From positions 1 through 64,000 of the forward strand of contig CALJNR010000073.1 of assembly GCA_937981575.1 (NCBI GenBank): DNA of 64,000 bases, written 5' to 3'. The translations under genes were made by a program, and so were the position numbers. Numbering within the stretch: the stretch's first letter is position 1; every line of letters starts with the position of its first letter. The notes below the pieces were generated by a model that saw only the letters and a list, made by a program, of their open reading frames with translations, did no database searches and was not told where the DNA came from. This DNA comes from an uncultured Clostridia bacterium (lineage in GTDB: Bacteria; Bacillota; Clostridia; Lachnospirales; Cellulosilyticaceae). Of the stretch, positions 52,388 through 62,404 are shown in pieces.

Positions 52388-55300
52388 ATGAAAAGAAAAC
52401 TAGCATTATTCCTAAGCATCATGATGATCATCAGTTTATTTCAAGGGATAAATATATATGCGGCGCCGCCAAGCAGTGAGTTTATTCAAACCCATAGGTT
52501 TGCAAGGACCCAGGAGGGTCTTTATGAGAGAGTAGGAACAGGCATGGAAAAAAAGGTTATGCCTGACGGAACACAGGAATCAGCGTTTAAATGGGAAATG
52601 CAGCAAGGGGAATATGAACTTACTTATGATATGATATCGAGTAAAAATACAACCAATAAAGTAAGGCTTGGTTTTGAAGTACTAGGAGAAGATGTTAAAG
52701 TAGATATCAGTCTTCGGGATGCTTTAGGAGCGCCGCAGACAGTTAACTATACGCAGTCTATCTTTCCTTACAGCAGCTCGTCAACTACAACGACAGGATC
52801 AAACTTTACATATACGCTAGGGATTAACCCTAAGTTGGCAGAACGAAGAGAACTAAGTTTAATAGCTGATAATACACATATTAGAATGTATATGGAAGGC
52901 AAAACGATACACTTTTGGACAAGTAATATCAGAAAGGGATATATTACAGATTTTACCTTAGCTTATGGGACTGAATCTCAGACCATTACAGTATTAAATG
53001 GACTAAGAGATTTTGAAATAAGTCCAATACATCTTGTGACAACTGGAGCAGCACTTGCATCAAAAGACATTATAGAAGTAAATGATGGCCTGAAGCCAGG
53101 GTCTAATCCTGGAGTCAGGGTATCCTTTGAAAAGCCTAAAAAGGTACAGGGCGGACAGTTCCAGCCTATTTCTTCAAATGGTGAAACAGCAACGCTTGCT
53201 ATTTGGGGGGAGCAAAGGCCAGGGGTAAAAGATACAACACGCATTAATAATGAGAGGAACCTGAGTTTTGCACTTTCTAATGGGGCTGTCATTAAAGATA
53301 CAGTTAAAAATCCTCCAGTAGGCGAGAATGTAGGGAATGCATATGATGACGGAAATACTGTAACAATTTACATAACAAAAGAGCGTCCAGTAGGAACAGG
53401 AGCAGATACAGCTGTTATATGGGACTCACTGGATGCTAGTATGCTCATAGGCGGCAAGCTGGAGCTTACGGGGGGAGTATTTAATACTATTAAAAATACG
53501 ACTTTTACGCCGCAAAATAACGGGCACACATATCTTGAATATACCGTATACCGCGCCAGCGAAGAACAAATTTGTATCGAGATTGTTCCATACAATATTA
53601 ATGGAACAGTAAACTATACATTGAAAGAAAGACTTGGGGGTACTGGTTCTCAAGGGAACTTCAGCAACATTATTACAAGAACCCACACTCGGACAGAAGA
53701 GAACAAAAATGATATTATATCAATTTATATTCCTAAAACGAAGGCAGATGTTTACTATCAAATAGAAGTTGATATCGGTACGAGTTCAAAACTCAATTCG
53801 CAGCAGCTTAGGTTTATGCCAGGGCTCAGCATTGCACCACCGCCTATCACTCAAATCTTAAGAGCAAACAATGTATACGTTATTCCGCCAGATACAACGA
53901 CAGGTAGTACGCTGATGGTACCTCAGGCTATAGGCTTTGACATTGAGTGGAGTGCACCAAGCAGTGCAGAGTTAGAAGCCATGCTTGCAAAAGGAGATAT
54001 CTATTACGAACTTTCTCTTTATGACAAGAAAAAAGAGAGTCCATATGTAACGAAAGTTTTCAGAGTCTATAAAGATCTAAGTGCCTCGGCAAATGAGCAG
54101 ATTAAAATAGCAATATACGGTGGAACACCATACAATGCTGAGGCAGCAGGGCAATACAATAAAACCACAGGAACTTTTGAAGTGAAAAGGGTTGTAGTCC
54201 AAAAGGCAGAAGAAACGAGATGGGAAAGGCTGGATCTTGCCCCAGAGCGTTTTACAAATAAACAAGATTATCCGGTAATAACGGAAAATGCTATTCGCGT
54301 AGATTTAGATTATTCTATTCCAGGAACTTATTATTTATCAATGAAAGGTATTTTGGATCCTGATGACGGATCACAGAATATAGCAGTCAGCAAAGAATCA
54401 AGTTTTATGTCTCTTGCCCTTGATTATGCAATAGAAGTGCTGCCTACCCCTTCTGATATAACAACTGTTAATCAGTCTGTTACCAGTGGAAGCAATTATA
54501 CTATTAGTTATGATATTCAAATAGAGAATTTAGACATCAGAAAGTATGTCAGAAATATGCTTGAACCAGCTAAGATTTATCTGGACGATCCTACTGGTAC
54601 AAGCCCAAATCTGAACAAAGGAATTTATGAAATATTTCTTTATCAGAAAAACGCCAGTAAGCAAAGCTATACACAGACAGATTTAGAAAATGCGATGAAT
54701 ACTCCAGAGAATGTGGTGCGTATGACTGATTTGAAGTTAGGGAATAAACTGGATATGTCACAATACGCTGAAAAGCTTAGAAAAGGCGAAGTGCTTGCGG
54801 TTGAGTATATAGCGAATGCACTTGAAGGCAGGCAGCAAAAAGAAAACCTGCTGCTTGAAAACCTGGATCCTAACCAAGTTTACTATGTAAAAGTAAGATT
54901 AAGGATAGATCCTTTGAAAGGAGATGCCCTATCGCCGCTGAGTTCGAGGTATTCTATATTTTCAAGTACGTATACCTTTACGACTGTCACAACCCCTCAG
55001 CCGCCAAAACCAGAAGATAAAGTACCGCCTGCTCCAAAATCTATATGGGTAGATTCTCAGCCTAACAATACAACGGCAGTACTTAAATGGGCTAAGGCTG
55101 AATTTGAACAAGATGAGGATACAACTAAGATTTATTATGAACTTATAAGAATGGCAGATGTTGGTCTTAAAGAAAATGAGAAAGGCAATAAAATTCCGCT
55201 TAGCAGATTAGTAGCTGATCATGCTGGCAGCAGCGGATTCTATACTTCAGAACCTAATATTATGACGATTAGAGGAAGTGCAGCTGCCTCAGAGCTTCAG

Positions 55301-57196
55301 CCAGTTCAATCTTCTGACAGTTTTAGGCTGGAAGATAACAGTCTTTCACCTAATACGATTTATTACTATTATGTACGTACGGTATGTGTTATTAAGGGTG
55401 AACTTGTGAGATCAGAGTGGATTATGGTGCCGGTAACGACGCAGCCTGTGGAAAAACCCATTAAATTACAGGTAGAAATACCTACGAAGTACCCATATAA
55501 CCCCAAAACGGAAACAGTTATCAGCTTTTTAGCGCCTATTCCACCAGGAGCAAATGTTCCGAATGATTATGAGTTTGAAATAGCTGTTCAAAGTGAAATG
55601 GAAGATAGTTATCGCCATGATTATGCTAAAACAGCTTTGACTTCAGTGGAGAATACCGCACTTATACCAGCAGGTTACAGGCATTTTGTCTATAAGATTT
55701 ATGATCTAAAACCAGGCAAGCGATATGACATTAAAGTAAGAATAGTAGATAAGACAGGGGAAAAACCAGTAAATGGAGATTATCCCCGCTCCTTATATTC
55801 AGATAAGGTTATTGCAAGAACAGAATTTGATCAGGATGACCAGGATAAAGATAATAAGTTTAATGAATATCTTAAGCGTTATGATGATGAGGTTGAGAAG
55901 CTAAGAAGAAAAGCCTTCTGGGAAGAAGAAGCCGAAAATAGATTTTCTACAATTTATAAGTATAGAGAATCTTATGTTAATGCTGAAATGGCAGTGCAAA
56001 ATATTTATGAACTGCAGACTCTAGAGGGTATGAATCGTGTGACCTATTACTTCCCAGCATCAATGCTGGATAAGGCTAGTGACTTAAACGTAGTTCTGCA
56101 GGCAGCGTTAGGCAATGAATCGATAAGCATTAGACCTTATACCCTAACATCCGGAAATGAAGCTATTAAAGAAGCCATTTATCAAAAAAATCAAAAGAAG
56201 ATTAAAGATTACTATATCAAACTTGATTTTCTCAAAATGTCTTCAATAGGAAGAATCAATGGTGAAGATGTTTTATCGCCGGAAATAAGTATAGATTTAG
56301 ACATTGTTTACTTAGACCAAGAGGATATACTTATTGAGGATAACATTATGATAGTGCTTAACAGCCTCATAGATCGGGAGCGAAAACGTATTATTACGCA
56401 GCTGGAAAAAGAACTTGCAAGAGGAACAATCAATGAGGATAAGCTGAAAGATATTATTGATAAGGCAGTAGCTAATATCAAAGATGACCACTTAAGAGAA
56501 GTAAAACGTATTTTAAAGAAAGAGCGCTATAAAGATGCTCTTGTAAAAGAGATAGAAAAGCCTATTCTTATTACAAGTATTTTGGATAGTTATGCAGTGA
56601 ACGGCTATTACTTAGAAGGGTACTGGAGTAGCGTAGAAGTTTTGCAGGCTAATGGAGGCTTCGGGATTGAAGCATATAAACTTGGTATTTATGCTTTCAC
56701 GGGCAAGATGGGAATAGGTAATGTTATCCCTGGAATGGCTGTGCATCAGAACATGATTTCAAAGTATAACCTTACAGACTTTTTCGCTCTAGATCCTTAT
56801 ATGATTAAGACAGGAACAACTAAAAAGCAGCTTTACGGAGCGGTTGCAAGAATATTAGGGGCGAAGAGAAATACCGATTATACCGAATACCTAAAAGCGA
56901 GAGGAATTAAAGGGATTACATCTATTGGAATGGATAAGGTTATCAGACAAGATGAGGCGGTTTATATTGTTATGCAGGCCTACGAAAAAATATATAACAG
57001 GCCTATTGGAACCATTCAAATAAAAAATAAACAGAGTGTAAAAAATATCGGAGCATTTCAGACTCAATACAGGCCATATGTTTATGCAGCAGTGGAGCTT
57101 AAGATTATTCAAAATCCAAATGCCAATGTCCTGCCAAGTAAACAGATATCTGTTGAAGAAACCATTAAGATGCTTTCTGGTATCGTACCTAAATAA
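52388..57196 (+). CDS. giant secreted surface protein 1, fibronectin-III-like with degenerate SLH-like C-terminus
   Basis: 1602 residues, SD GGGAGGG. Signal peptide at 1-25 (KRKLALFLSIMMIISLF, cleavage near IYAAP). Residues about 30-870 are beta-rich and Thr/Ser-rich, with no family I know. A fibronectin-III-like module begins near 880 (PPAPKSIWVDSQPNN, with TTAVLKWAKAEF), with another near 1030. Charged helical stretches are at about 1147-1187 and 1329-1391. The end (about 1475-1600) has three weak SLH-like units (TKKQLYGAVARILG, VIRQDEAVYIV, YRPYVYAAVELKIIQ). No LPxTG. Probably attached to the wall by the C-terminus. Followed by a second giant after 16 bases. Confidence 0.85.
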   Translation: MKRKLALFLSIMMIISLFQGINIYAAPPSSEFIQTHRFARTQEGLYERVGTGMEKKVMPDGTQESAFKWEMQQGEYELTYDMISSKNTTNKVRLGFEVLGEDVKVDISLRDALGAPQTVNYTQSIFPYSSSSTTTTGSNFTYTLGINPKLAERRELSLIADNTHIRMYMEGKTIHFWTSNIRKGYITDFTLAYGTESQTITVLNGLRDFEISPIHLVTTGAALASKDIIEVNDGLKPGSNPGVRVSFEKPKKVQGGQFQPISSNGETATLAIWGEQRPGVKDTTRINNERNLSFALSNGAVIKDTVKNPPVGENVGNAYDDGNTVTIYITKERPVGTGADTAVIWDSLDASMLIGGKLELTGGVFNTIKNTTFTPQNNGHTYLEYTVYRASEEQICIEIVPYNINGTVNYTLKERLGGTGSQGNFSNIITRTHTRTEENKNDIISIYIPKTKADVYYQIEVDIGTSSKLNSQQLRFMPGLSIAPPPITQILRANNVYVIPPDTTTGSTLMVPQAIGFDIEWSAPSSAELEAMLAKGDIYYELSLYDKKKESPYVTKVFRVYKDLSASANEQIKIAIYGGTPYNAEAAGQYNKTTGTFEVKRVVVQKAEETRWERLDLAPERFTNKQDYPVITENAIRVDLDYSIPGTYYLSMKGILDPDDGSQNIAVSKESSFMSLALDYAIEVLPTPSDITTVNQSVTSGSNYTISYDIQIENLDIRKYVRNMLEPAKIYLDDPTGTSPNLNKGIYEIFLYQKNASKQSYTQTDLENAMNTPENVVRMTDLKLGNKLDMSQYAEKLRKGEVLAVEYIANALEGRQQKENLLLENLDPNQVYYVKVRLRIDPLKGDALSPLSSRYSIFSSTYTFTTVTTPQPPKPEDKVPPAPKSIWVDSQPNNTTAVLKWAKAEFEQDEDTTKIYYELIRMADVGLKENEKGNKIPLSRLVADHAGSSGFYTSEPNIMTIRGSAAASELQPVQSSDSFRLEDNSLSPNTIYYYYVRTVCVIKGELVRSEWIMVPVTTQPVEKPIKLQVEIPTKYPYNPKTETVISFLAPIPPGANVPNDYEFEIAVQSEMEDSYRHDYAKTALTSVENTALIPAGYRHFVYKIYDLKPGKRYDIKVRIVDKTGEKPVNGDYPRSLYSDKVIARTEFDQDDQDKDNKFNEYLKRYDDEVEKLRRKAFWEEEAENRFSTIYKYRESYVNAEMAVQNIYELQTLEGMNRVTYYFPASMLDKASDLNVVLQAALGNESISIRPYTLTSGNEAIKEAIYQKNQKKIKDYYIKLDFLKMSSIGRINGEDVLSPEISIDLDIVYLDQEDILIEDNIMIVLNSLIDRERKRIITQLEKELARGTINEDKLKDIIDKAVANIKDDHLREVKRILKKERYKDALVKEIEKPILITSILDSYAVNGYYLEGYWSSVEVLQANGGFGIEAYKLGIYAFTGKMGIGNVIPGMAVHQNMISKYNLTDFFALDPYMIKTGTTKKQLYGAVARILGAKRNTDYTEYLKARGIKGITSIGMDKVIRQDEAVYIVMQAYEKIYNRPIGTIQIKNKQSVKNIGAFQTQYRPYVYAAVELKIIQNPNANVLPSKQISVEETIKMLSGIVPK

Positions 57197-57212
57197 AGAA
57201 GGAGGGAAGTAA

Positions 57213-60200
57213 ATGAGAAAACGAATAACAGCATGGCTTATACTAACAGTAATGATTGTAAATCTTATCCCTTCTGAACTCTTTGCAAACCCGCAAAAGC
57301 CTATTCCAATGGATGGTATTAAGGATATTGTTGTCCAAAACAGAGCCGTATCTACTTTGCCGGGGGCAGATATTATGCCTAAAGTAAGCGTACAATGGGA
57401 CCCAGCTCCAAACAATGATCCGTCAAGTCCGCCGAATCCTGACAGAGACCGTAATGTAGAAACCTATCGGTTTGAGCTAACAGATTCAACTGCGCTGAAT
57501 GCTAGAATCTATGGGGAGCGGAAAGCTTATACAGGGACTTTGCAGGATAACATTGAAGATCGTGTAAAGGATGTCAGATTTACAAATGGTAGGCTCTATA
57601 AACTAAGAATTTTGCCGGCCCACACTGAAGTGATAGGGACAGGGGATAACCAGCAGCAGGTGCTCGTTGAACCAATAACTAATGTTAACCAGCCAGAAGC
57701 CTATTTCTTAACAGATTTTAATACAAAAGCAAAAGATGTAGATGGCAAGCTGCAAGTTACATGGGAGTATATACCCGGTGGACAATATGAGGTTATCTAT
57801 GTTCCAGCCGATCGAAAAACGGTAGAGGAAATAGAAAATAGTGCAGACAGCAGCGGTAACAAAATCGCTTCATCTGTGGCCAGAGTGAGCTCGGACTACG
57901 CAAAGCTAGCTGAGAATCAGCTCATAGAAGATGGTGCGCGAAAAGTAAAATATACACTAACTGATGCAGACCCGGGGCAAGTCTATTCAGTTTACGTAAA
58001 ACTTGTGGGGCTTACGGCAGAAAATCCTTTCGGTATTCGTTTTGATCAAGTTAGACAAAACACTAAAAAGGACAGCCAAGGACCTAAGGTAGCTCAAGCT
58101 ACTACAAGCATCAACTTAAAAGTTTTCAATGTTGGAGCAAATGATGTAAGGCTGGAGTGGACTTTAGCGTCATGGCTCCGGCTTAATCCAAGACTTATTA
58201 GCGAAACTAGAATTAAGCAAAGGGTTGAGGGAGGAACATCTGAGGTAACGATAGGTACGATTCCAAATCAAGATAGTGTGGTTGAATACTACCAGTATAC
58301 AAGACCGACAAGAAATACTTATTTTCTTATAGAGTTTATTATAGAAGGACAAAAAGATCCGCTTCGAACTAAGGAAGTGCTTTATATTCCGAGTGAGGCT
58401 GTGGAAAGGCCTTTGCAGCCCCAAGTGCCAAAACCCTTTTCAGAAAGCCTGGATTTAAGTAAAATCAACATTTCAGAGTATAAAGTTGTTGGAGATGATA
58501 TGAATACCAACGATCCAAGACTCATACAAAATACATTCCATGCTAAAAAGTCTCCACAGCAAATCCAGCTTATATGGAATGCACCAAAGATTTTTAATGC
58601 CCAGAATCAGTTAACGACAGACTATAATCAGTACTACGATATTTTCGTTACAGAAGACAGAAAGCAGCTGGATGAGCTGGGACTTGTACCAATTGTAAGC
58701 AATGGTTTTTTAAATCAAAATCAAACCAATAAACTTATTTTTAAACAAGATAACAAAACTGTAGTTGGATTTAAGTGGTTGCTAGATCAATACACAACCA
58801 AAAATTATCAAACATCGGCTCTTATGCCTAATAAAACCTACTATATTAAAATTGTTGCTAAAAGAGAATATGGCAATGACTATATCAATTCTGAGCCGAC
58901 GGTAGTCACAATTACAATAGGAGAGGATGGAAATATCTTCGTTCCTCCGGTTCTTGCAAAGCCGCCACTCAAGCTTCATAAAACAACGACGGAGACGGCA
59001 ACCTTAAGATGGCTTACGACTTGGTATGAGCTATCTGTTAAAGATCAAAGTTTGAGAAATGCATATGATGCACTCCAAGAAGGAGAACTTGCAAAAAACT
59101 GGAACTCTGTTGTCTATACCGGAAGCAGCACCTCTCCTTATATTAGGTTCAAAAAAGCAGATCCAAGTTATCAGGAGCATATCTTAAAAACTTCTAATGA
59201 TTTGCTTCGGGTACAAGGAGCAGTAAATGGAGCAACAACTTATGGAGCGCTTTATATAGACAGAGAAGTGACTCTTGGCAATGATTCAAAATATGAGATC
59301 AAAGTGCTGGGGTATGATGAAGTAAATAGGCAGATAGATCTCTACAACCAAACTGCTCCGAAGCCAATTTCGATTGAAGAGTGGATTGTAGAAAAAGAAA
59401 GCGATACAACAAGCGGTTGGGAGAGTATTAATCCAAAAGCGCCGCAGACAGATTTGGAAGAAGACCGACTTCCATGGCTGGAATATACGCAAGAAGGGCT
59501 AAGGCCTAATACGCGCTATGTTATTTTAGTAAGAGCCTACAGGGTACTGGCAGATGGTACAAAGCTTCAGCAGACCTTCCCAAGTTATGTTATATGTACA
59601 ACTTTGACAGACTATGAAAGTCCAGAAGAAACCCCGAAAACGCCAGAACTTAATTTGGACACAAAAAATGATGTTTCAGCCACTGTATGGTGGACATATA
59701 GCAGCAGTTTTGATTATGAAATTGTGTACGGCAGATTAGATGATGTATCAAAAGCAACGAAGTGGGACTTTACCATTTCAGATGTTCCAGGAAATAATAA
59801 CTATGTATCCAATGGGGCAAAAGCCAGTGTGAAAATCACGGGTCTTATACCAGAGACGTCATACAATATATGGATTCGCGCCAAACAGAAAAAAGGAACT
59901 TTATCATCAGCTTGGAGTAATCCTGTAACCGTAAAAACAGATATTCTAGGGATTCCAGCGGCGCCTACTGGACTCGGCCCGGCAGCTTATCAAAGTATAT
60001 TAGAACTTGGTAAAGATTTTCCCGCAGTTACAAAAGATTATATTACTGTAGAATGGATTAAAAATGCTAATGATGTTACAGAAACCTCATCAGATGCAGA
60101 AAAACAATACAGCTATATAGTAGAATTTGCGGATAACCCTGAATTCTTAGATGCTGTTATTGTTAAGACGTCTGAAATAGCTGCACCAGGGGGGAAGGCA

Positions 60201-61508
60201 GAGGCTGATCAGTATGAAGTACTTGCAAAAAATATAGTTAAGTTTAATAATCTAATTTCTAACAGACCTTATTATGTGAAGGTAAAAACTGTCCTCACCT
60301 TTAAAGATAGGGAAGGGAATCGAGAAATAATTAAAGAGTCAGACTATACACAGTGGGTAAGAATTATCACTTTGAAATCTTCAGATGAATATGATGGAGG
60401 AGCAAACGAAAATATCGTTATTTATCCTGACGCTATTATCGAAAACTATTCAAAAGATATCTGGACAATAGAGATTGTAGATACAGCTAAAGTTATTTCA
60501 GATATTATGAAGAATAAAGCTTACTTCTATACAGTAAAAGCTGAGAAGTTTAATAATAAACAAGATGCTACAATCAGAAGGATTAAAATGCCAAAGACAG
60601 TGGTGGATGCGCTTATTAATCAAAGGATGGAAATAAGGGTTGTTACCAATATAGGGGTCTATGAGATTCCAGCTAAGGCTTTAGCTGTGTATACGAATAA
60701 ATATAGTGCAAAAGATATGATTCAACTAGACTTTACTAAAATTGTTGATTATAAAATTGCTAATATCCTGCGCCCCTATCCTGAGGCCTTCATTAAAGGC
60801 GAACAGCTTGATATTGTCATAAAAGGAAAAACAAATACCACGATTATCAAGAAGCTGGATGGGTTTCTTAGAGCAAAAATAAAACTTGATGCAGCTAAGG
60901 AGTACCTCTATAAGGATTTATTTGCCTATACCTACAATTTTGATAGAAATGCATGGATCAAAGAAAACTATTCAATCGATACGCTGATAGATACTTATGT
61001 GAGTTACTTAACGCCTGCTACAGGTATTTATGCAGTTTACCAAAAAACAAAAGGCAGTTCATCAACAGCCAGCTCGTTTGCTATGAATACTCTGACAAAT
61101 ACCTATGGTATATCAGGACTTGGAAGCTCATACCGTAGATTCGATCCTGTTTCACGTAATCAGTATGTTCATCTGCTTTTGGGAATAGCACAAAATAAAT
61201 CAGAAATTAACCTTGCATCGGCAATGCATGCTGATATTCTTTCAAAAGCCAAAGCGGCAGGCCTTTACACAGATACAAATGCAGGGGTTATTTCCGAGGA
61301 GCAAGCCCTTTTAGGGGTTGTGAAACTCTATGAACTTAAAAACGGGTTTAAAATTAAGCCTTCAAGTATTAAGTTTGCGAATGTAGGGGCTAAGTACCAA
61401 GAAGCGGCAGCGAAGGCTTATGCGATAGGGCTCATTGAGGACATTAATCCAAAACAGCCTGTTACTTATGAAGTGTTGTGTGATTGGATTCTGCAAGTTA
61501 CAGAGTAA
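57213..61508 (+). CDS. giant secreted surface protein 2, fibronectin-III-like with degenerate SLH-like C-terminus
   Basis: 1431 residues, SD AAGGAGGG 7 bases before ATG. Signal peptide about 1-25 (KRITAWLILTVMIVNLIPSELFA). Repeated fibronectin-III-like modules are clearest at about 820-910 (SATVWWTYSSSFDYEIVYG through TSYNIWIRAKQ) and 917-1030. A shared helix/beta region at 1060-1290 resembles the corresponding part of giant 1. The end (about 1310-1431) carries SLH-like units (SRNQYVHLLLG, VISEEQALLGVVKLYEL, YQEAAAKAYAIGLIED). No sortase signal. It looks like a paralogue of giant 1 in one operon. Partner or ligand unknown. Confidence 0.85.
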   Translation: MRKRITAWLILTVMIVNLIPSELFANPQKPIPMDGIKDIVVQNRAVSTLPGADIMPKVSVQWDPAPNNDPSSPPNPDRDRNVETYRFELTDSTALNARIYGERKAYTGTLQDNIEDRVKDVRFTNGRLYKLRILPAHTEVIGTGDNQQQVLVEPITNVNQPEAYFLTDFNTKAKDVDGKLQVTWEYIPGGQYEVIYVPADRKTVEEIENSADSSGNKIASSVARVSSDYAKLAENQLIEDGARKVKYTLTDADPGQVYSVYVKLVGLTAENPFGIRFDQVRQNTKKDSQGPKVAQATTSINLKVFNVGANDVRLEWTLASWLRLNPRLISETRIKQRVEGGTSEVTIGTIPNQDSVVEYYQYTRPTRNTYFLIEFIIEGQKDPLRTKEVLYIPSEAVERPLQPQVPKPFSESLDLSKINISEYKVVGDDMNTNDPRLIQNTFHAKKSPQQIQLIWNAPKIFNAQNQLTTDYNQYYDIFVTEDRKQLDELGLVPIVSNGFLNQNQTNKLIFKQDNKTVVGFKWLLDQYTTKNYQTSALMPNKTYYIKIVAKREYGNDYINSEPTVVTITIGEDGNIFVPPVLAKPPLKLHKTTTETATLRWLTTWYELSVKDQSLRNAYDALQEGELAKNWNSVVYTGSSTSPYIRFKKADPSYQEHILKTSNDLLRVQGAVNGATTYGALYIDREVTLGNDSKYEIKVLGYDEVNRQIDLYNQTAPKPISIEEWIVEKESDTTSGWESINPKAPQTDLEEDRLPWLEYTQEGLRPNTRYVILVRAYRVLADGTKLQQTFPSYVICTTLTDYESPEETPKTPELNLDTKNDVSATVWWTYSSSFDYEIVYGRLDDVSKATKWDFTISDVPGNNNYVSNGAKASVKITGLIPETSYNIWIRAKQKKGTLSSAWSNPVTVKTDILGIPAAPTGLGPAAYQSILELGKDFPAVTKDYITVEWIKNANDVTETSSDAEKQYSYIVEFADNPEFLDAVIVKTSEIAAPGGKAEADQYEVLAKNIVKFNNLISNRPYYVKVKTVLTFKDREGNREIIKESDYTQWVRIITLKSSDEYDGGANENIVIYPDAIIENYSKDIWTIEIVDTAKVISDIMKNKAYFYTVKAEKFNNKQDATIRRIKMPKTVVDALINQRMEIRVVTNIGVYEIPAKALAVYTNKYSAKDMIQLDFTKIVDYKIANILRPYPEAFIKGEQLDIVIKGKTNTTIIKKLDGFLRAKIKLDAAKEYLYKDLFAYTYNFDRNAWIKENYSIDTLIDTYVSYLTPATGIYAVYQKTKGSSSTASSFAMNTLTNTYGISGLGSSYRRFDPVSRNQYVHLLLGIAQNKSEINLASAMHADILSKAKAAGLYTDTNAGVISEEQALLGVVKLYELKNGFKIKPSSIKFANVGAKYQEAAAKAYAIGLIEDINPKQPVTYEVLCDWILQVTE

Positions 61509-61548: not shown

Positions 61549-61561
61549 TACTATAAAATAT

Positions 61562-61602
61562 CCCCATACTCTAACTACTATGAATAAGTAGAAAGTATGG
61601 GG
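61562..61602 (+). terminator. hairpin directly before ywmB: terminator of the giant operon or leader switch
   Basis: Outer stem CCCCATACT/AGTATGGGG (9 bp), inner CTACT/AGTAG, followed by TATTTTT and then the ywmB ATG at 61610. It looks like a terminator for the upstream operon. The GGGG in its 3' arm is also the only SD-like sequence for ywmB, so the hairpin could hide the ribosome site. Confidence 0.6.
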
Positions 61603-61609
61603 TATTTTT

Positions 61610-62404
61610 ATGAAAATAAGTAATAGAGTTATTATCTTAGTGACCTTAATTTTATCTGTAAGTTATATATTTGGAATTGATTATTATGATAAAAAAGAAA
61701 GTAAAGTGAAAAGCCTTTACCAAAAAGTAACTTTACCGGAAGTTACATATACGGATGTTTATATTGCATTTAATGGCATAAAAACTGGTGAAAAGCTAAA
61801 TGAGCGAGATTTGGCTGTTAAACAAAGCCAAAGTATTTATATGCTTTCCCATGATCACGAGTGTTCAAAGCTCTGCGCTCAGCTGCATCCCCAAGATACG
61901 AGTACAGAGTTCGTTCAGGAAGATGAGAGGCTAAGTCTTCAGATTAATAGAGCAAGTGAAATCGCTCGGTATACAGTATCTGTAAAGTCGCAAAAGGATA
62001 TCGGCTATAATACGTACTATAAGATAGAGATGCAAGGCATACAAGATCTCAATGAATTAGACAGCCTAAGAGGATATGCACAGAACCTTTTTAATAAGTG
62101 GAAAGTAAGACCAAAGGAAACGCTTTACTTTAAAGGAACTATTATGGGCAAGATAGATCCTTACCAAAAAAAGAATCATGCAGCTGGGTTATTAGGGAAG
62201 CTTAAGGCACGTCAAACAGGTTATTATGAGGATGATAGCAGCCACGAAACAGTTGCTTACTACGGTTACACAAAAACGATCAAAGACTATATTCTAGATG
62301 AGAACGGTGAGAAGACTAATGTCCAAATAAGTTTTTCTTATCATGAAGCTGAAGACTACACACAGATGATTATAGCATTCCCATTTTATAATGAGCCATT
62401 TTAA
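61610..62404 (+). CDS. ywmB: YwmB-like protein (TATA-box-binding-like DUF1779)
   Basis: 264 residues. N-terminal signal or anchor helix (RVIILVTLILSVSYIFGI), then a soluble part with IAFNGIKTGEKLNERD, an acidic loop and a repeated alpha/beta pattern typical of the YwmB fold. In B. subtilis ywmB lies upstream of murAA and spoIID; here spoIID follows directly and murAA is absent. Function of YwmB is not known to me. Assignment rests on fold-like pattern and position. Confidence 0.65.
   Translation: MKISNRVIILVTLILSVSYIFGIDYYDKKESKVKSLYQKVTLPEVTYTDVYIAFNGIKTGEKLNERDLAVKQSQSIYMLSHDHECSKLCAQLHPQDTSTEFVQEDERLSLQINRASEIARYTVSVKSQKDIGYNTYYKIEMQGIQDLNELDSLRGYAQNLFNKWKVRPKETLYFKGTIMGKIDPYQKKNHAAGLLGKLKARQTGYYEDDSSHETVAYYGYTKTIKDYILDENGEKTNVQISFSYHEAEDYTQMIIAFPFYNEPF

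Follow-up and report, generated by a model that had tools for sequence, protein, structure and literature searches.

Two giant secreted proteins, here termed A and B, are encoded side by side in the genome of an uncultured Clostridia bacterium of the family Cellulosilyticaceae (assembly GCA_937981575.1), in the first 64,000 nucleotides of the forward strand of contig CALJNR010000073.1, the stretch referred to here as the window. At about even odds (probability roughly 0.5), the two form a heteromeric scaffold, as the large subunits of an ancient clostridial surface complex that is anchored in the wall. This reading starts from the signal peptides, the module content, the pairing of the two genes and their link to the enzyme CsaB, and it would entail contact between A and B, binding to the wall and a structural role.

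Gene A (52388–57196, 1602 residues) and gene B (57213–61508, 1431 residues) lie on the forward strand with 16 bases between them, and a ribosome-binding site precedes each. The upstream neighbour is mutY, and a DUF1779 (YwmB-like) gene, spoIID and an M23-type gene follow downstream, giving the order atpC-mutY-A-B-ywmB-spoIID. Between B and ywmB lies a terminator-type hairpin with a T-run (61552–61612, forward strand; RNA fold −21.1 kcal/mol, z −5.8), so that the pair looks bicistronic and separate from ywmB; judged from the sequence, one bicistronic unit is the most likely arrangement. Both products start with a signal peptide, covering about residues 1–26 of A (52388–52465, forward strand), a signal-like start shared by almost every complete A homologue, and about residues 1–25 of B (57213–57287, forward strand), where A25 and Q28 are nearly invariant. 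The coordinates, the signal peptides and the 3' hairpin confirm a preliminary description of the locus, which had seen two large secreted reading frames in one unit and no sortase signals; a motif search of the C-termini of both proteins likewise found no LPxTG-type sortase motif. An NCBIfam search gave no family matching A or B, and a sequence search of the PDB with either protein singly gave no credible match.

The pair is widely kept. Of 59 related genomes, 45 have an orthologue of A and 42 have one of B, and scanning a single genome for each species gave 71 loci, all in Clostridia, with hosts including Cellulosilyticum, Sporanaerobium hydrogeniformans, Candidatus Epulonipiscium viviparus, other Epulopiscium, Vallitalea and Defluviitaleaceae. 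A and B co-occur almost wherever they are found, and A precedes B in nearly all of about 100 loci from many clostridial families. In a set of 107 loci, which counts some genomes twice, 93 junctions from A to B were measured; the median gap is 14 bases, with at most 50 bases in 68 and at most 200 in 88. A class-wide sample of 293 genomes added 32 further genomes with B-type proteins from several families, and a phylum-wide sample of 299 genomes, searched with different thresholds and models, held no B-type protein beyond the window's own. Pairwise distances of A and B are correlated (0.89 over 33 genomes; 0.86 over 15 genomes when SpoIID is controlled for), which is supporting evidence only because the short control proteins are noisy. 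Two variants of the pair were recorded in passing. In Epulopiscium viviparus and a relative, both surgeonfish symbionts (L069 and L122), two tandem copies of A are followed by two of B, and at L074:6080-15344 (genome G025) A and B are each split into two frames and stop codons interrupt B, through either sequencing error or decay.

A and B are paralogues, as judged at the level of profiles. The paralogy asserted in the preliminary description could not be carried by the lone sequence pair, for which BLASTP aligned 50 residues at E 3e-4, and that comparison was dropped as too weak. Profiles built from 38 orthologues each, on the other hand, aligned collinearly over 956 columns (probability 99.9%, E 5e-31), and the C-terminal 400 residues by themselves aligned with a probability of 99.3% (E 2e-20). 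The alignable part starts only after the N-terminal part of A. In many genomes, the B profile also picks up the C-terminus of the A protein encoded beside B.

In several families, a third gene, C, lies directly 3' of B and encodes a secreted protein of ~285 residues that scores 84–92 bits against the Pfam SLH family (curated cut-off 20.8 bits); C with canonical SLH units adjoins B also outside the window's order. The earlier remark that no surface-layer (S-layer) gene is adjacent holds within this window only. In many lineages, this small SLH protein is the neighbour of B. In the window's own family, C is absent beside the pair, and a search of the rest of the window genome at E 1e-20 found none. 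In one family (f13), B ends after its GAIN/ZU5-like part, without the SLH end, and C follows directly; from this arrangement, anchoring could have been taken over by the small SLH protein. Two loci, L058:4856-8680 and L080:3809-7597, have such a B without the SLH end; C follows immediately, and A lies on a different contig.

The C-terminus of B is predicted to adopt an SLH trimer fold (61065–61505, forward strand) with degenerate ligand motifs (SRNQ, SEEQ and TYEV). A Pfam SLH (PF00395) search of the window's A and B, C-termini included, gave no match, so SLH is argued here from profiles, from structure and from distant orthologues. The AlphaFold2 model of residues 1062–1431 of B reached a mean predicted local distance difference test (pLDDT) score of 90.7, and about 93 in the SLH region; its last 147 residues form six helices. 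This end matched SpaA-SLH and Sap-SLH with Z 12.3–13.4 over about 132 residues, scoring higher than the unrelated structures matched (6cwh, Z 13.4, 132 aligned; 6bt4, Z 13.1). A hidden Markov model (HMM) built from B C-termini only matched other secreted proteins of the order in register over ~300 residues, with E down to 7e-22 for canonical SLH proteins, and all six of the matched proteins that were checked contain three Pfam SLH units. In front of the trimer lies a GAIN/ZU5-like domain (60438–61055, forward strand; 4dlo, Z 10.2, 148 aligned; ankyrin ZU5, Z 8.2), without the HFS motif of related SLH proteins.

A similar module closes A (55955–57193, forward strand), comprising, by homology to B, a GAIN/ZU5-like part with a helical insertion, followed by SLH-like units. 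The SLH fold of this end is inferred from its profile match to B, a weaker match to C and a distant orthologue; in its degenerate SLH-like region (56744–57193, forward strand), TKKQ, RQDE and SVEE replace TRAE. Orthologues outside the order exceed the Pfam SLH cut-off for both proteins (35.6 bits for B of L222, 26.1 for A of L230 and 21.4 for B of L224). The weak SLH-like ends noticed at the outset have gained a predicted SLH fold in B, at Z about 13, and profile-level homology in A. With this fold, and with A and B regularly occurring together, neither of the outcomes that the preliminary description had named as refuting it came about.

Between the signal peptides and these ends, both proteins are largely built of fibronectin type III (Fn3)-like modules, as had been proposed. 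An Fn3 domain of B (residues 812–907; 59646–59933, forward strand) scores 50.2 bits against Pfam fn3 (cut-off 25), and the family is present in the middle region of 37 of 38 B relatives and 28 of 38 A relatives; window A itself scores 23.0 bits as a whole protein and 27.7 bits over the middle region, and its Fn3-like stretch covers about residues 489–1140 (53852–55807, forward strand). An N-terminal stretch of A, 485 residues long, was modelled by AlphaFold2 as an all-beta chain with a pLDDT of 87. Model residues 178–453 (53000–53827, forward strand) match tandem Ig/Fn3 and cytokine-receptor folds with Z 8–9, a middling value that agrees with the neighbouring Pfam results, with poor root-mean-square deviations across long spans. 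The N-terminus, first described as novel, is hence mostly Ig/Fn3-like, and the novelty narrows to the first ~160 residues, which hold an all-beta domain of no clear known fold (52469–52999, forward strand) with no Pfam match and no separate Foldseek match when searched within the 485-residue model rather than alone. Conservation peaks in the inner Fn3 modules, at residues 850–1150 of A and 540–950 of B, which suggests a specific interface and not a plain spacer.

CsaB is the enzyme that makes the SLH ligand by pyruvylating the wall polymer. The window genome encodes CsaB (314.8 bits, cut-off 213.1) as well as canonical SLH proteins. The comparison covered 157 genomes of the order, of which nearly all reach 90% completeness or more. 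Full-length B was present in 77 and CsaB above the cut-off in 120, both being found together in 74 of the 77; the other three B genomes are drafts of 270–330 contigs. B occurred in none of 32 genomes from two families without CsaB. Fisher's test for the association gave 3e-9, a value inflated by relatedness.

From these features, a sequence of events can be proposed. A and B would be exported by the Sec pathway, after which their C-terminal modules would be placed at the wall; the ancestral modules would bind the pyruvylated secondary wall polymer, and the long conserved Fn3 parts would join the two proteins in a hetero-oligomeric scaffold that projects from the wall. Where C is present, as in many lineages, this small canonical SLH protein may serve as a further anchor. 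The window's family has no C beside the pair, and its A and B have eroded ligand residues, so attachment there is probably weaker, relies on the single basic residue that the first SLH unit retains, or runs through other SLH proteins.

That erosion is the first of several points that count against a wall-anchored heteromer. In SpaA, pyruvylated ManNAc is bound by SLH-Trp13, Gly29 and Arg43 (PMC6081394). This set is complete in no SLH unit of the window's A or B, and wall tethering by the SLH-like ends, as originally proposed, is therefore weakened in this organism even though the SLH fold stands. Within the order, unit 3 of either protein has lost position 43 (Tyr or Phe in 27 of 38 B sequences), and unit 1 of A keeps a basic residue in 32 of 38. 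Orthologues outside the order mostly retain T/S-R-x-E/D in units 2 and 3 of A and B and not in unit 1. The ancestral proteins thus resemble standard SLH anchors with TRxE motifs, and the window's lineage has drifted from that state. Further, A and B lie on separate contigs in one clade (G035 and G053), so adjacency is not obligatory, and the association with CsaB is partly shared ancestry. Finally, codon usage is average, with a codon adaptation index in the window genome of 0.49 for A and 0.48 for B against 0.74 for ribosomal proteins, so nothing there indicates high abundance of either protein; abundance had been considered on this ground and was set aside as unsupported.

A more far-reaching version of the proposal is less likely than not. 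A, B and C might constitute an undescribed class-wide envelope complex of Clostridia that predates the split of several orders, with the two giant SLH paralogues as an obligate structural heteromer whose SLH ends, in Cellulosilyticaceae and the giant Epulopiscium, switched from binding wall polymer to a new role in attachment or assembly.

It is rather unlikely that A and B are the lattice subunits of a two-component S-layer, with the SLH ends at the wall and the Ig/Fn3 domains forming the lattice, even though an SLH-type C-terminus, Ig-like rods, the association with CsaB and an Fn3 region conserved above the termini would all suit such a role. S-layer proteins are usually the most abundant in the cell, and their genes usually vary fast. 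Codon adaptation of A and B tops the locus in one genome (G044; 0.78 and 0.79), which favours the lattice reading; the average usage in the window genome and middling values in G002, G006 and G125 speak mildly against it, as does the fact that A and B are mostly single-copy and held in synteny.

Less likely still is a role as adhesins, or as proteins that bind gut or plant polymers as substrates, with the SLH-type ends fixing them to the wall. Many hosts are gut-dwelling or fibre-degrading (Cellulosilyticum, Epulopiscium and Defluviitaleaceae) and A carries an N-terminal all-beta domain without known assignment, yet no carbohydrate-binding Pfam family was found in the scanned regions of A and B, and conservation is highest in the inner Fn3 modules instead of the outermost domain. 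The pair is also present in Vallitalea and other lineages; Vallitalea and some other hosts are not known from guts.

The genomic setting raises one more candidate role. The preliminary description had asked for such pairs between mutY and ywmB or spoIID in other Clostridia; mutY is adjacent only in the window's own family, and it is murA-spoIID that recurs in the wider setting (atpC ... murA-spoIID). Among nine loci outside the order that were read for gene order, atpC-A-B-(C)-[ywmB]-murA-spoIID-M23 was found in L222, L226 and L230 and A-B-C-ywmB-murA-spoIID in L223 and L224, and the ywmB-like genes were confirmed as DUF1779 in four loci. On gene order, the window's arrangement is most simply derived from atpC-A-B-(C)-ywmB-murA-spoIID. 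A complex acting in wall growth, at the septum or in forespore engulfment, for which the position of the pair between the ATP synthase operon and the murA-spoIID-M23 genes in distant orders of the class could speak, is improbable given the terminator that splits A-B from ywmB in the window and the many families that carry the pair elsewhere, without ATP synthase or murA-spoIID genes. Two neighbours of the pair deserve mention on their own account. The gene directly upstream of A at L224:3-812 encodes BslA-like (E 1e-44) and S-layer SbsC C-terminal (E 1e-10) domains, and in a Cellulosilyticum relative the mutY gene beside the pair (L072:15177-16219) is read as two overlapping frames, possibly a frameshift or assembly error.

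The modules of A and B are known ones, and the conserved A-B(-C) system appears new as such, being a variant of SLH-anchored surface proteins; no description of the pair was found in the open-access literature searched. Like SpaA/SlhA of Paenibacillus alvei and Sap of Bacillus anthracis, A and B are secreted, end in a terminal SLH trimer (Z about 13 for the B end) and occur in genomes with CsaB, but they differ in the ligand residues, which are eroded in the window proteins, and in their fixed-order paralogous pairing. Cellulosome anchoring scaffoldins, which combine SLH units with cohesins, as in Clostridium clariflavum, are likewise large SLH-anchored surface proteins of related Clostridia; no Pfam match to a cohesin or dockerin was found in A or B. 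That a pair of surface proteins of 1300–2200 residues keeps one gene order across distant Clostridia suggests a basic, as yet nameless function in the envelope. Cultured species with finished genomes also encode orthologues, so the question is accessible to deletion and pull-down, and the lineages form a natural series for the evolution of SLH anchors after loss of the ligand residues and for their replacement by the small partner C.

Close relatives of the C-terminal module are clostridial proteins with a GAIN/ZU5-like part and three SLH units (such as L189, L187 and L191), which share the two-part arrangement of A and B, as seen in the ~300-residue match of the B-end HMM, and have unlike N-terminal parts. 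They differ in the junction as well. The HxS/T-type cleavage motif (H[FLIVY][STC]x[YF]) is absent from the last 450 residues of all 76 A and B sequences, whereas 9 of the 12 canonical SLH proteins checked carry HFS at the end of the GAIN/ZU5-like part. In these nine (L189, L193, L187, L191, L194, L186, L195, L190 and L197), it takes the form HFSxY, a motif of the kind that is cleaved autocatalytically in animal ZU5/FIIND domains, and stands just before the SLH trimer, 184–201 residues from the C-terminus.

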